DNA of 64,000 nucleotides. Origin: Armatimonadota bacterium. Its GTDB lineage: Bacteria; Sysuimicrobiota; Sysuimicrobiia; Sysuimicrobiales; Sysuimicrobiaceae. Below the pieces are notes generated by a model. The model worked only from the letters and a program-made list of their open reading frames with translations, was not told the DNA's origin and did no database searches. This document shows positions 47,764-56,990 of the stretch, piece by piece. Numbering within the stretch: the stretch's first letter is position 1; the number at the start of each line of letters is the position of its first letter. Location: positions 1 to 64,000 of the forward strand of contig JANXBY010000057.1 of the NCBI GenBank assembly GCA_025060455.1. Reading direction: 5' to 3'. Position numbers and translations under genes: made by a program.

Positions 47764-47793
47764 TTGACGCACGGGAGCAACGGTCGCTATATT
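47764..47793 (+). promoter_or_regulatory. Sigma-70-type promoter for the sulfate-assimilation operon: TTGACG-18-TATATT
   Basis: TTGACG 47764-47769, TATATT 47788-47793. Confidence 0.65.
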
Positions 47794-47815: not shown

Positions 47816-47899
47816 ATGAAGCGACCCATCGTCCTTTCGGCTTCGGTGGTCCGCCCTCGGCAGTGCATCTGTCCTAGGCGGGAGGAATCCCGGGCCTAG
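47816..47899 (+). CDS. Candidate leader peptide MKRPIVLSASVVRPRQCICPRREESRA upstream of sat
   Basis: ATG preceded by AAAGGA at SD spacing; 27 aa; shares R-x-C-I-C-P-x-R with a second leader at 55938. Confidence 0.6.
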   Translation: MKRPIVLSASVVRPRQCICPRREESRA

Positions 47900-48006
47900 C
47901 AGGGCCGGGTTCCTTCCGCGGCTTCCGGTTTTCCCCTAGCCGTTCCAAGACGAACGTCGCGCCGCGTTGCGCAGGGGCGTGCGTGTGCGCGAGGAGGAGG
48001 TGTGGT

Positions 48007-49182: not shown

Positions 49183-51108
49183 ATGGCACAGGTTCAGACC
49201 GGGCCGCAGGTCACGTGGGAGCTCGTGCTCAAGCGCAACTCCATCGAACGGCTCAAGCGGGAGAAGTTCCCCTTGGACATCGTGGACGAACTGCCAGACC
49301 TCATCGCGCGGGGCTACGAGGCCATCCCAGAGGAGGACATCGTGCGCCTCAACTGGTGGGGCCTCACCCACGACAAGCCGAAGGTGGGGACCTTCATGGT
49401 GCGCATCAAGGTCCCCGGGGGAAGGGTGCGGCCCGCGCAGCTGGTGGCTTTGGGGCAGGTCGCCCGCCGCTACGGCCGCAACTACGGAGAGCTCACCACC
49501 CGACAGGGCATCCAGCTGCACTGGGTGCGGCTGGAACAACTGCCGGAAGTCCTCTCCGCGGTACAGGCAACGGGGCTGACCACCGTGGGCGGGGAAGGCG
49601 ACACGGTCCGCAACGTGACCAGCTGCCCCGTGGCAGGGGTGGACCGCCAGGAGCTGTTTGACGTGCGCCCCGTGGTGGAGGCGGTGGCGCGGTTCTTCTA
49701 CGGCCACCGGGACTACAGCAACCTGCCCCGCAAGCACAAGTACACCATCAGCGCCTGCCCCGCCCAGTGCAACGCGCCGGAGATCCACGACGTGGCGTTG
49801 GTGGGCGTGCTGAAGGACGGCCGGCCGGGGTTCGCGGTGCGGGTGGGCGGAGGGCTATCGGCCACACCGCGGATCAGCCGGGACCTGGGGGTGTTCGTGC
49901 CCGCAGATCCTCCACACGGAGTGGTGGAGGTGCTGCGGGCCATCACCGACACCTGGCAGAACGACCTGCGGTACCGCCTGAGCCGCGCCAAGGCCCGGAT
50001 CAAGTTCATGGTGGACGACTACGGGCCGGAGGCGGTGCGGGCGATGGTGGAGGCCCGGCTGGGCTATCGCCTGGAGGACGGTCGCGCACCGGCGCCCACC
50101 CACGACACGGACCACCTGGGCGTGCACCCGCAGAAGCAACCGGGGTTGGTGTACGTGGGCGTTCCGGTGCCCATGGGGTGGATCACCGGAGATCAGCTGG
50201 TGGCCCTGGGCGAGCTGGTGGGCTCCTTCGGGGGAGAAGTGCGCTTCACCCGCACGCAGAACCTCATCGTCACCGACGTCCCGGAGGACCGGCTGCACTC
50301 CGTGGTGCGGGAGCTGGCGGCGGTCGGCCTCGACCCGAGCCGCAACCCCGTCTACGGTCGGTCGGTGGCGTGCACCGACCACCGCTTCTGCAACTACTCG
50401 GTGGCGGAGACCAAGGGCAAGCTCAAGGAGATCCTGGAGGAGCTGGAACGGCGGTTCGGGCGGGAGGTGGCGGATCTGCGCATCTACACCGACGGCTGCC
50501 CGCACGCGTGCGCCCACCACTGGGTCGGGGACATCGGCCTGCAGGGCACCACCACCCTGCACCCGGGGCGGGGCGTGCGGGTGGAGGCCTACGACGTGTG
50601 CCTGCGCGGCGGGCTCGGAACGCGGGCCGCCATCGGAAAGCCCCTGATCCGGCGCGTGCCGGAGGACCGGATCGTGGAGGTGGTGTGCCGGCTGCTGGAG
50701 GGGTGGCTGCGGGAGCGCCGGACGCGCGGGACGGGATTCGCCTTCCGGGACTTCGTGGACGCGCACACGGACGACCAGCTACAGGCCCTGGCGCTCGGAG
50801 AAGGGGCAGGGGACGAGGCCGCGCCGCGGCGGCCGGTGGTGCGCGTGCCCGGCATGCTCCTGCCCTACAGCGAGGGCGCCGACCGGTTGGAGGTGGACGC
50901 CCGCACCGTGCGGGAAGCCTTGGAGGTCCTGCGGGCCCGCTACCCGCAGCTGGTGGCGCAGGTCCTCACGCCCGACGGGCAGGTCCACCCGAGCGTCAAC
51001 CTGTTCGTGGGCGAGGAGGACGTGCGGGGACTGGGAGGGCTGGACGCGCCCCTGCGTCCGGGCGAGGAGCTCACTATCCTCCCCGCCCTGGCGGGCGGTG
51101 GTGCGTGA
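49183..51108 (+). CDS. Ferredoxin-type sulfite reductase with C-terminal ThiS/MoaD/CysO-like sulfur-carrier domain
   Basis: NVTSCPVAGVDRQELFDVRP, NLPRKHKYTISACPAQCNAPEIHDVALV, IYTDGCPHACAHHWVGDIGLQG; C-terminus VRVPGMLLPYSEGADRLEVDARTVREALEVL...VNLFVGEEDVRGLGGLDAPLRPGEELTILPALAGGGA. Confidence 0.9.
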   Translation: MAQVQTGPQVTWELVLKRNSIERLKREKFPLDIVDELPDLIARGYEAIPEEDIVRLNWWGLTHDKPKVGTFMVRIKVPGGRVRPAQLVALGQVARRYGRNYGELTTRQGIQLHWVRLEQLPEVLSAVQATGLTTVGGEGDTVRNVTSCPVAGVDRQELFDVRPVVEAVARFFYGHRDYSNLPRKHKYTISACPAQCNAPEIHDVALVGVLKDGRPGFAVRVGGGLSATPRISRDLGVFVPADPPHGVVEVLRAITDTWQNDLRYRLSRAKARIKFMVDDYGPEAVRAMVEARLGYRLEDGRAPAPTHDTDHLGVHPQKQPGLVYVGVPVPMGWITGDQLVALGELVGSFGGEVRFTRTQNLIVTDVPEDRLHSVVRELAAVGLDPSRNPVYGRSVACTDHRFCNYSVAETKGKLKEILEELERRFGREVADLRIYTDGCPHACAHHWVGDIGLQGTTTLHPGRGVRVEAYDVCLRGGLGTRAAIGKPLIRRVPEDRIVEVVCRLLEGWLRERRTRGTGFAFRDFVDAHTDDQLQALALGEGAGDEAAPRRPVVRVPGMLLPYSEGADRLEVDARTVREALEVLRARYPQLVAQVLTPDGQVHPSVNLFVGEEDVRGLGGLDAPLRPGEELTILPALAGGGA

Positions 51109-51118
51109 GGAGGGCGAG

Positions 51119-51919
51119 ATGGCGAGGGTTTTGGCCTTCGACGACCTGCAGATCGGAGAGATCGCCCTGGAGCTGGACGACCGGGAGCCCCAGGAGGTGA
51201 TCGCGTGGGCCCTGGAGACGTTCGGCGACCGGGTGGCGGTGGTGACCGCCCTCCAGGCGGAGGGGATGGCCATCCTGGACATGGCCACGCGGCTGCGGCC
51301 GGACGTGCGGGTGCTCACCGTGGACACCGGACGCCTCCCCCAGGCCACGTACGCGTTCCTGGACCGGGTACGGGAACACTACCCGCGGGCAAAGTTCCAG
51401 GTCCTGTTCCCGGACCACCGGGAGGTGGAGGCTATGGTGCAGCGGCACGGGGTCAACCTCTTCTACCGATCGGTGCCCCTGCGGCTGCTGTGCTGCCAGG
51501 TGCGGAAAGTCCGGCCCCTGGTCCGGGGCCTGGAGCAGCTGGACGCGTGGATCACCGGGCTGCGGCGTGAGCAGTGGGCGTCCCGGGCCAACATCCGCAA
51601 GGTGGAGCTGGACCACGATCACGACGGCATCGTGAAGGTCAACCCCCTCGCGGACTGGACCAAGGAGGAGGTGTGGGAGTACCTGTACGCGCACGGGGTG
51701 CCCGTCCACCCGCTGTACGAGCAGGGGTACACCAGCATCGGCTGCGACCCGTGCACGCGGCCAATCCAGCCCGGCGAGGACGACCGGGCGGGCCGGTGGT
51801 GGTGGGAGGAGGGCGCCCCGAAGGAGTGCGGGATCCACTGCCCCATCGAGACGGGCGGGTTCGAGCATGAGGCCCACGCCATCCTGGGCGAAGCCCACCG
51901 GGAGGAGGTGTGGCGGTGA
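51119..51919 (+). CDS. cysH: Phosphoadenylyl-/adenylyl-sulfate reductase, 4Fe-4S type
   Basis: [23 protein letters not shown]...[14 protein letters not shown]...[13 protein letters not shown]...KECGIHC. Confidence 0.93.
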
Positions 51920-52938
51920 CGGAGGCGACGTCGCACGTGGACCGGGAGTCCGCGGAGCTGCTGGCGGAGGAGGTGGAGGCGCTGGCCCGGGCGCTGCCCG
52001 AGCCGCAGCGGGAGCGGGCGCGGGCGGCGTCGGAACGGCTGCGGCGCGGCGAGTTCCCCGAGGATCTGGTGGACGTGGTGGAGTCTGCGGTGGCCCTCTC
52101 CCTGCAGACGGGCCGGGCGCGACGGCGCTACCGGGCAGAGGGGGAGCGGCTGCTCACCCAGGTCCTGTGGCGCACCCCACGCGGTCAGGCCCTGCAGCGC
52201 CGACTGGAGGCTACCAACCGGGCGCTGCAGGCCCTGCGGGGCCGACGCCTGGACAGCGTGCGGGTGGCCGCCCGCACCCTGGGCGACTACTCCGTGGTGC
52301 TCCGGGCAGAGGGCGTGGCGCTGACGCTTGCCGCCCGGGCCGACGGGGTGGAGCTGGAGAGCGTGTCGGTGGACGGTGAGCGGGACCAGACCCGTGGGGT
52401 GTGCGTCTGGCTCACGGGGCTTCCCGGCGCGGGCAAGAGCACGCTGGCAGAGCTTGTGGCGGAGCGCCTGCGCGAGGTCGGACGCCCGGTGGAAGTACTC
52501 GACGGCGACGCGGTGCGGCAGCACTTCTCCCGCGGGCTGGGGTTTTCCCGAGAAGACCGGGTAGAAAACGTGCGGCGGGTGGCCTATGTGGCCGGGCTGC
52601 TGGTCCGGCACGGGATCGTGGTGCTGGCCGCCCTCATCTCGCCCTACCGGGATGCCCGCGCCCAGGCGCGGGAGCTGGTGGGCCCTGACTTCCTGGAGGT
52701 GTACGTGCGCTGTCCGCTGGACGTCCTGGTGGCCCGCGACCCCAAGGGGTTGTACGCACGCGCCCTGCGCGGCGAGATCCCCAACTTCACGGGCGTCAGC
52801 GACCCGTACGAGGAGCCGGAGTCGCCCGACCTGGTGGTGGACACTCACCGCGAGATCCCGGCGGAGGCCGCGGCCCGAATCGTGCGGCTGTTGGAGGCGC
52901 GGGGCTACCTGGCCACGGGAAGCGGAGGGCCGGTGTGA
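51910..52938 (+). CDS. cysC: APS kinase with ~155-aa N-terminal extension domain
   Basis: [65 protein letters not shown]...[36 protein letters not shown]. Confidence 0.92.
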
Positions 52939-55899: not shown

Positions 55900-55928
55900 T
55901 TGACACCCCGGAACGGCGGTGCTAAAAG
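55900..55928 (+). promoter_or_regulatory. Sigma-70-type promoter for the sulfurtransferase unit: TTGACA-17-TAAAAG
   Basis: TTGACA 55900-55905, 17-nt spacer, TAAAAG 55923-55928. Confidence 0.7.
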
Positions 55929-55937
55929 AGACGGAGC

Positions 55938-56018
55938 ATGAAGTGGCAACGTTACGCACCGCGCAGCTGCATCTGTCCGTGGCGGAGGCGGGGTCTGCCT
56001 TCGCTGCGCCCCTTGTAA
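55938..56018 (+). CDS. Candidate leader peptide MKWQRYAPRSCICPWRRRGLPSLRPL upstream of the sulfurtransferase
   Basis: 26 aa; begins just after the promoter; shares CICP-x-R with the sat leader; followed by an intrinsic terminator. Confidence 0.65.
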   Translation: MKWQRYAPRSCICPWRRRGLPSLRPL

Positions 56019-56054
56019 GCACCCGCGAAGCCAACCCTGTCTCCGCTGAGCCGT

Positions 56055-56078
56055 GCCCAGGTCGGCACCTGGGCTTTT
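56055..56078 (+). terminator. Intrinsic terminator/attenuator between leader peptide and sulfurtransferase
   Basis: GCCCAGGT-CGGC-ACCTGGGC followed by TTTTCTGT; lies between promoter and gene. Confidence 0.85.
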
Positions 56079-56126
56079 CTGTCTCTCAAGCTTTCAAAGG
56101 TCCGTGCGCCCGAGGAGGTGACAGGA

Positions 56127-56986
<860 letters not shown>

Positions 56987-56990
<4 letters not shown>

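Follow-up and report, generated by a model that had tools for sequence, protein, structure and literature searches.

Features of the sulfurtransferase locus

In the window, by which we mean the whole stretch of 64,000 nucleotides that was analysed, a gene for a sulfurtransferase is preceded by a promoter, a short leader ORF, four RNA strands with pairing capacity and an intrinsic terminator (Table 1). The promoter hexamers lie at 55900-55905 and 55923-55928, separated by a spacer of 17 nt, and the distance from the -10 element to the leader ATG at 55938 is 9 nt. The leader has 26 residues, contains two Cys codons and ends with a TAA stop codon at 56016-56018. A first-pass annotation of this DNA had proposed the promoter, leader, Cys codons, pairings, terminator and gene start, and the coordinates of all of them were confirmed in the sequence. 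Its suggestion of a near-leaderless start also held, and the start codons are close to the promoter in the relatives too. Note that the sequence past the terminator (56076-56086, CTGTCTCTC) repeats part of strand D (CTGTCTCC); in the full-length RNA, a pairing of this sequence with the Shine-Dalgarno and start-codon region of the sulfurtransferase is predicted.

Table 1. Coordinates of the features at the two leader loci of the window
Feature	Position	Strand	Basis
Promoter of sat leader, TTGACG-18-TATATT	47764..47793	+	sequence scan
Sister leader MKRPIVLSASVVRPRQCICPRREESRA before sat	47816..47899	+	kept in G038, G039, G040
A:D stem of sat leader (GCGGGAGGAATCCCG / CCGGGTTCCTTCCGC)	47878..47919	+	14/15 pairs
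Sigma-70-type promoter TTGACA-17-TAAAAG (extended TGCTAAAAG)	55900..55928	+	sequence
Putative leader peptide ORF MKWQRYAPRSCICPWRRRGLPSLRPL, near-leaderless	55938..56018	+	sequence, homologues, codon-structured conservation
Control codons Cys-Ile-Cys (TGC ATC TGT)	55968..55976	+	TGC at 55968, TGT at 55974
Strand A (GCGGAGGCGGGGT)	55982..55994	+	starts 14 nt after first Cys codon; covariation
Strand B (GCCTTCGC), able to pair with A (alternative) or C	55997..56004	+	homologue alignment
Strand C (GCGAAGCC), partner of B within the A:D stem	56025..56032	+	fold
Strand D (ACCCTGTCTCCGC), 13 bp with A	56034..56046	+	pairing, RNAalifold, covariation
Intrinsic terminator GCCCAGGT-CGGC-ACCTGGGC-TTTT, apparently lineage-specific	56055..56078	+	sequence, folding, homologue scan
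Shine-Dalgarno AGGAGG of sulfurtransferase	56113..56118	+	sequence
Two-domain rhodanese-type sulfurtransferase gene, ATG 56127	56127..56990	+	Pfam PF00581, E 3e-41

The same annotation had called this leader the second of a CICP type in the window, and indeed a sister leader stands before sat. It is conserved throughout the four genomes that belong by assignment to the genus of the window, that of the window included. The pattern TGYATHTGYCC matched twice in the window, against 0.10 matches expected. A third CICP leader was rejected, as the sole other match of the strict pattern in this genome is inside what looks like a biotin-ligase-type coding sequence (L002) and is regarded as chance. The same strand carries, upstream of the sulfurtransferase, sat, sulfite reductase, cysH, an adenylylsulfate-kinase-type gene and hemD, together with a cysG-N-type gene, a uroporphyrinogen methyltransferase-type gene and an unassigned ORF, apparently for a membrane permease. 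Two products of this region deserve mention: the sulfite/nitrite reductase-type protein (49183-51105) carries a C-terminal ThiS (ubiquitin-like) domain at residues 570-639, an unusual fusion, and the adenylylsulfate-kinase product (51910-52935) has about 150 extra N-terminal residues, the match to the kinase domain beginning at residue 158-161.

Distribution of the leader family and its genes

Both leaders of the window belong to a family with the core P-R-x-C-I-C-[P/L/R]. We retrieved relatives with the sulfurtransferase protein as query, independently of the leader motif, and a CIC leader was found upstream of the sulfurtransferase at 17 distinct loci of the class of the window. With sequence patterns, the leader was found in 31 of the 43 sampled genomes of the phylum of the window. 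The 26-nt leader pattern gave 48 matches in these genomes (about 8 for the reversed pattern), and the 21-nt core pattern TGYATHTGYC-N5-CGRAGG gave 54 (none reversed). A Chloroflexota form, TGYATHTGYCC-N3-GCGGGGG, matched 26 times in 250 genomes and never in reverse. Note that these patterns presuppose the spacing, for which the protein-derived set is the unbiased evidence.

Among about 80 sulfurtransferase loci outside the phylum, only L052 had a convincing Cys leader. The best match among named genomes was an 'ANGP1' record (L033), which we take to belong to the Sysuimicrobiota lineage. Two loci labelled as archaeal (Nitrosocosmicus; L073 and L081) both have a short LCICKPY ORF 300-400 nt upstream of the sulfurtransferase, which could be chance in AT-rich DNA. 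The Rfam covariance models gave no match at the gathering threshold in the window and only chance-level matches at E values up to 10, and NCBIfam has no model for the leader.

The leaders directly precede genes for the sulfurtransferase, Sat, a sulfite/nitrite reductase, a DUF4395 membrane protein and a PLP enzyme of Cys/Met metabolism, as well as OsmC-like, NMT1-like and family-5 solute-binding proteins, an ATP-grasp-type protein and TusA, the last recognised by eye. In Chloroflexota, a cysteine-synthase-like PLP enzyme is a further target. The targets are thus mostly in sulfur and cysteine metabolism. The first-pass annotation had suggested a two-member Cys regulon; the Cys regulon stands, and two members are too few, because about ten gene families carry the leader across the phylum.

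Evidence for translation of the leader

In the Pro and Arg codons just before the Cys motif, the first two positions are conserved and the wobble base varies freely, and the Arg codon is sometimes AGG instead of CGN. Such a pattern is the mark of a translated peptide, so that the leader ORF is probably translated and, as expected of an attenuator, a short, apparently coding ORF with Cys codons stands before sulfur or cysteine genes. A TTGAC-type promoter was found at the matching position before 51 of 66 leaders, and the first start codon in frame frequently lies only 8-10 nt beyond the -10 element, suggesting that leaderless or near-leaderless initiation is common. The analysis supports the earlier proposal of a translated Cys leader with almost no 5' UTR and with conditional control.

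There is also conservation at the nucleotide level. The leaders share ATCTGTC, and 65 of 66 have TGT as their second Cys codon, although TGC and TGT occur in the downstream genes in a ratio of 134 to 23 (15% TGT). A search for a pairing partner of the invariant ATCTGTCC found none better than for scrambled seeds.

A covarying helix at a fixed distance from the Cys codons

The first-pass annotation had pointed to two alternative pairings. One of them, GCGGAG (55982-55987) with CTCCGC (56041-56046), proved to be the core of a helix of 11-18 bp between strands A and D. Strand A consists of GCGGAGG and an extension, and in the long-form leaders it pairs over 11-18 pairs with strand D (...TCTCCGC), located 60-95 nt downstream. 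In the alignment of 19 loci, 98.7% of the A:D cells were paired, against 46-55% when the partner was slid, and 22 cells showed double changes, against 5.6 in shuffles. RNAalifold, run unaided, found the A:D helix and no other. When D was swapped among loci, the pairs in the extension dropped from 5.1-5.3 of 8 to 4.0 +/- 0.17, a difference beyond all 5000 permutations. The covariation analysis across homologues that the annotation had proposed thus strongly supports A:D. For the other pairing, CTTCGC (55999-56004) with GCGAAG (56025-56030), the coordinates were right and B:C folds inside the A:D stem; strand C is variable in the homologues. The A:B pairing, formed in 98% of cells of the 19 loci, is almost without covariation and reflects sequence conservation.

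A sub-family of short leaders (RPRECICPPRR*) has a local hairpin only, in which GCGGAGG/CCTCCGC is replaced by GCGAAGG/CCTTCGC, a compensatory change. In the loci from the protein search, the distance from the first base of the first Cys codon (Cys1) to the start of strand A is 14 nt, with the exception of L020, which has an inserted hairpin. The covariation of A:D and the spacing of A together place a conserved RNA where the position of a ribosome could control its pairing.

The inserted hairpin, of about 45 nt, lies between the Cys codons and A in L020-L022, and A:D is kept in L021 and L022. The inserted sequence of L020 differs. By its appearance, the insert is a small mobile or REP-like hairpin tolerated in frame. 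At L157, two further near-perfect hairpins (CCAGCGAAATCTT.../AAGATTTCGCTGG and CTACAAAATACC.../TTTTGTGG) lie between the leader and the gene; each precedes a GGGGAC/GGGGAG-like sequence, and they resemble repeated mobile hairpins.

The terminator in the window and in relatives

The intrinsic terminator at 56055-56078 is real, as the first-pass annotation had it. It is the sole terminator-like site in 10.5 kb, and shuffled sequence averages 2.4 such sites, so the terminator alone is not statistically striking. The annotation had also read it as conditional, with the upstream pairings deciding its formation, and had named the lack of a mutually exclusive antiterminator on folding as the result that would speak against this. 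When we folded the RNA with a ribosome footprint, the terminator stem had a probability of 0.96-0.97 with no ribosome, with a ribosome stalled at Cys1 or at the second Cys codon, and with a ribosome at the stop codon. It starts 8 nt past D and neither overlaps nor competes with A:D, and folding found no competing partner beyond a weak duplex. A switch between terminator and antiterminator is therefore unsupported at the window locus, and for this terminator the result that the annotation had named as speaking against it was obtained. Among about 60 leaders of the phylum, this was the only strong U-tract terminator, a weak one being present in L005; it is apparently a lineage-specific addition.

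In the Chloroflexota loci L239 and L241, D doubles as the 5' arm of a U-tract terminator. The predicted probability of this terminator is 0.00 with a ribosome stalled at Cys1 and 0.96-0.99 with a ribosome at the stop codon, so that on folding A:D would exclude the terminator and the starved state would be ON. In L237 and L238, also from Chloroflexota, the terminator wins in all ribosome states at equilibrium. A separate terminator after D recurs in several Chloroflexota loci, such as L240, L252 and L253, indicating that the arrangement in the window is not unique.

Proposed mechanism and alternatives

We consider it likely that the leader in the window is a cysteine-responsive, ribosome-mediated attenuator, with A:D as the expression-permitting state under starvation. 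The cells probably sense cysteine shortage by the stalling of ribosomes on the Cys codons. Transcription would begin at the leader AUG or no more than a few bases from it, and the leader would be translated by a ribosome. When charged Cys-tRNA is scarce, the ribosome would stall with the first Cys codon in its A site. The footprint of a ribosome extends about 12-13 nt beyond the first base of the codon in the A site, so a ribosome hungry at Cys1 should end just before A, with its leading edge near 55980 and A (from 55982) just free, and A:D would be possible. The free A would pair with D and enclose B:C, giving the state that permits expression. With ample cysteine, the ribosome would move on over A and B to the stop codon and bar A:D, and D would be left free and the downstream gene held off. 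The flip of the terminator in L239 and L241 makes expression on starvation the most likely sign, and the insert in L020-L022 suggests that A stays free, and is not masked, during the stall. Masking of A by the stalled ribosome was rejected as a general model, since the insert prevents masking and A:D persists in two of these loci. We infer the stall, the sign at the window locus and the output step in the phylum. Several observations sit uneasily with the attenuator as proposed: U-tract terminators are absent elsewhere in the phylum, a ribosome at the stop codon would sit over the local hairpin of the short type, the terminators of L237 and L238 do not respond to the ribosome on folding, and D pairs with the Shine-Dalgarno region of its own gene no better than with those of others.

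This last point bears on the manner in which D could act. Free D might sequester the Shine-Dalgarno sequence of the sulfurtransferase, with A competing for D, as in translational attenuation. D contains CUCC, complementary to GGAG, and D:SD pairing was predicted at many loci with A and B masked; in an earlier set, one permutation test gave p 0.05. However, this weak first signal was lost with a cleaner set (p 0.28; similarity of A versus the Shine-Dalgarno, p 0.52), reversed sequences paired as strongly as the real ones, and in the full transcript of the window the Shine-Dalgarno is about two-thirds paired in all ribosome states alike. We therefore rejected D as a Shine-Dalgarno sequestrator and regard translational attenuation of this type as unlikely. 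Classical transcription attenuation, in which a stall at the Cys codons forms an antiterminator that blocks the 56055-56078 terminator, would suit the order of promoter, leader, strong terminator and gene, and the same logic works by folding in L239 and L241; yet we think it improbable at the window locus, given a terminator that is insensitive to the ribosome, has no strong competitor and is missing in the homologues.

Alternatively, a C-rich untranslated stretch might load Rho after termination of leader translation, A:D hiding this stretch during an upstream stall. In the 100 nt before the gene, C exceeds G at 46 of 54 leader loci (0.38 vs 0.30), compared with 13 of 31 leaderless controls (0.31 vs 0.31), and a Rho mechanism was proposed for the mycobacterial cys leaders (PMC1262725). 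The evidence is compositional, though, and the controls were drawn from other phyla; moreover, the leaders of the short type expose the C-rich stretch in both states. Rho-dependent attenuation is thus possible, if somewhat doubtful. Finally, the conserved nucleotides might form an RNA or protein-binding element to which the CIC peptide is incidental. The conservation of ATCTGTC and the nearly invariant TGT would agree with this, but the wobble variation of the upstream Pro and Arg codons, the start codons close to the promoter and the lack of a conserved pairing partner for the motif make such an element very unlikely.

If the attenuator reading is correct, our results suggest that ribosomes stalling on a compact, conserved leader serve as cysteine sensors in two little-studied phyla, and that about ten gene families are tied to cysteine status, among them DUF4395, OsmC-like and ATP-grasp genes, whose role is uncertain. 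They also suggest that more than 60 comparable attenuators form a natural set, with a constant spacing between the edge of the ribosome and the helix and with an output module that changes from one phylum to the other. With somewhat less than even confidence, we propose a distinct class of cysteine-sensing RNA leaders, common to or ancestral in the phylum of the window and Chloroflexota. Its members would have a stem at the edge of a ribosome stalled on Cys1, a second Cys codon fixed as TGT and, in the phylum of the window, a phylum-wide sulfur regulon. In Chloroflexota the output would be an intrinsic terminator; in the phylum of the window it would be a step other than a terminator, possibly Rho-dependent. 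A full-text search of the literature, weak evidence because subscription papers were mostly outside it, returned no account of the motif in the phylum of the window or in Chloroflexota.

Comparison with known systems

Attenuators of the E. coli trp/his type combine control codons and alternative pairings, with the position of the ribosome as the sensor. The folding of L239 and L241 in Chloroflexota matches this logic, whereas the terminator in the window lies outside the alternative pairing.

Leader peptides that mediate cysteine attenuation are known, or have been predicted, from mycobacteria and further Actinobacteria (PMC1262725) and for cysS of Rhodobacterales (PMC8632094). The uORFC-8-2 motif of the latter resembles our leaders in having Cys codons in a short uORF and predicted ribosome-mediated attenuation. 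However, its Cys codons are in tandem and lie within the first stem, all its members have a U-run terminator and cysS is the sole target, while the leaders described here have no general terminator and many target genes. The leaders of the cys operons of Mycobacterium and Propionibacterium and of cbs in Bifidobacterium (PMC1262725) share with ours the Cys codons and the lack of an obvious terminator, but they are without conserved hairpins, in contrast to the strongly covarying helix found here.

A similar layout is seen in the polycysteine leaderless sORFs of mycobacteria (Canestrari et al. 2020, doi 10.1111/mmi.14498). According to papers that cite this work, these conserved regulatory sORFs respond to cysteine by a mechanism termed translation attenuation. 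As described there, they are, like our leaders, short, leaderless or nearly so, rich in Cys and located before cysteine or sulfur genes, and the near-leaderless start is shared. The consecutive run of Cys codons near the end of the leaderless ORF, given there as typical, was not found in our leaders, which have only C-I-C, often in mid-peptide. From the mycobacterial sORFs as so described, the present leaders differ in their C-I-C core with a fixed TGT, their position-locked A:D helix and their occurrence in different phyla.
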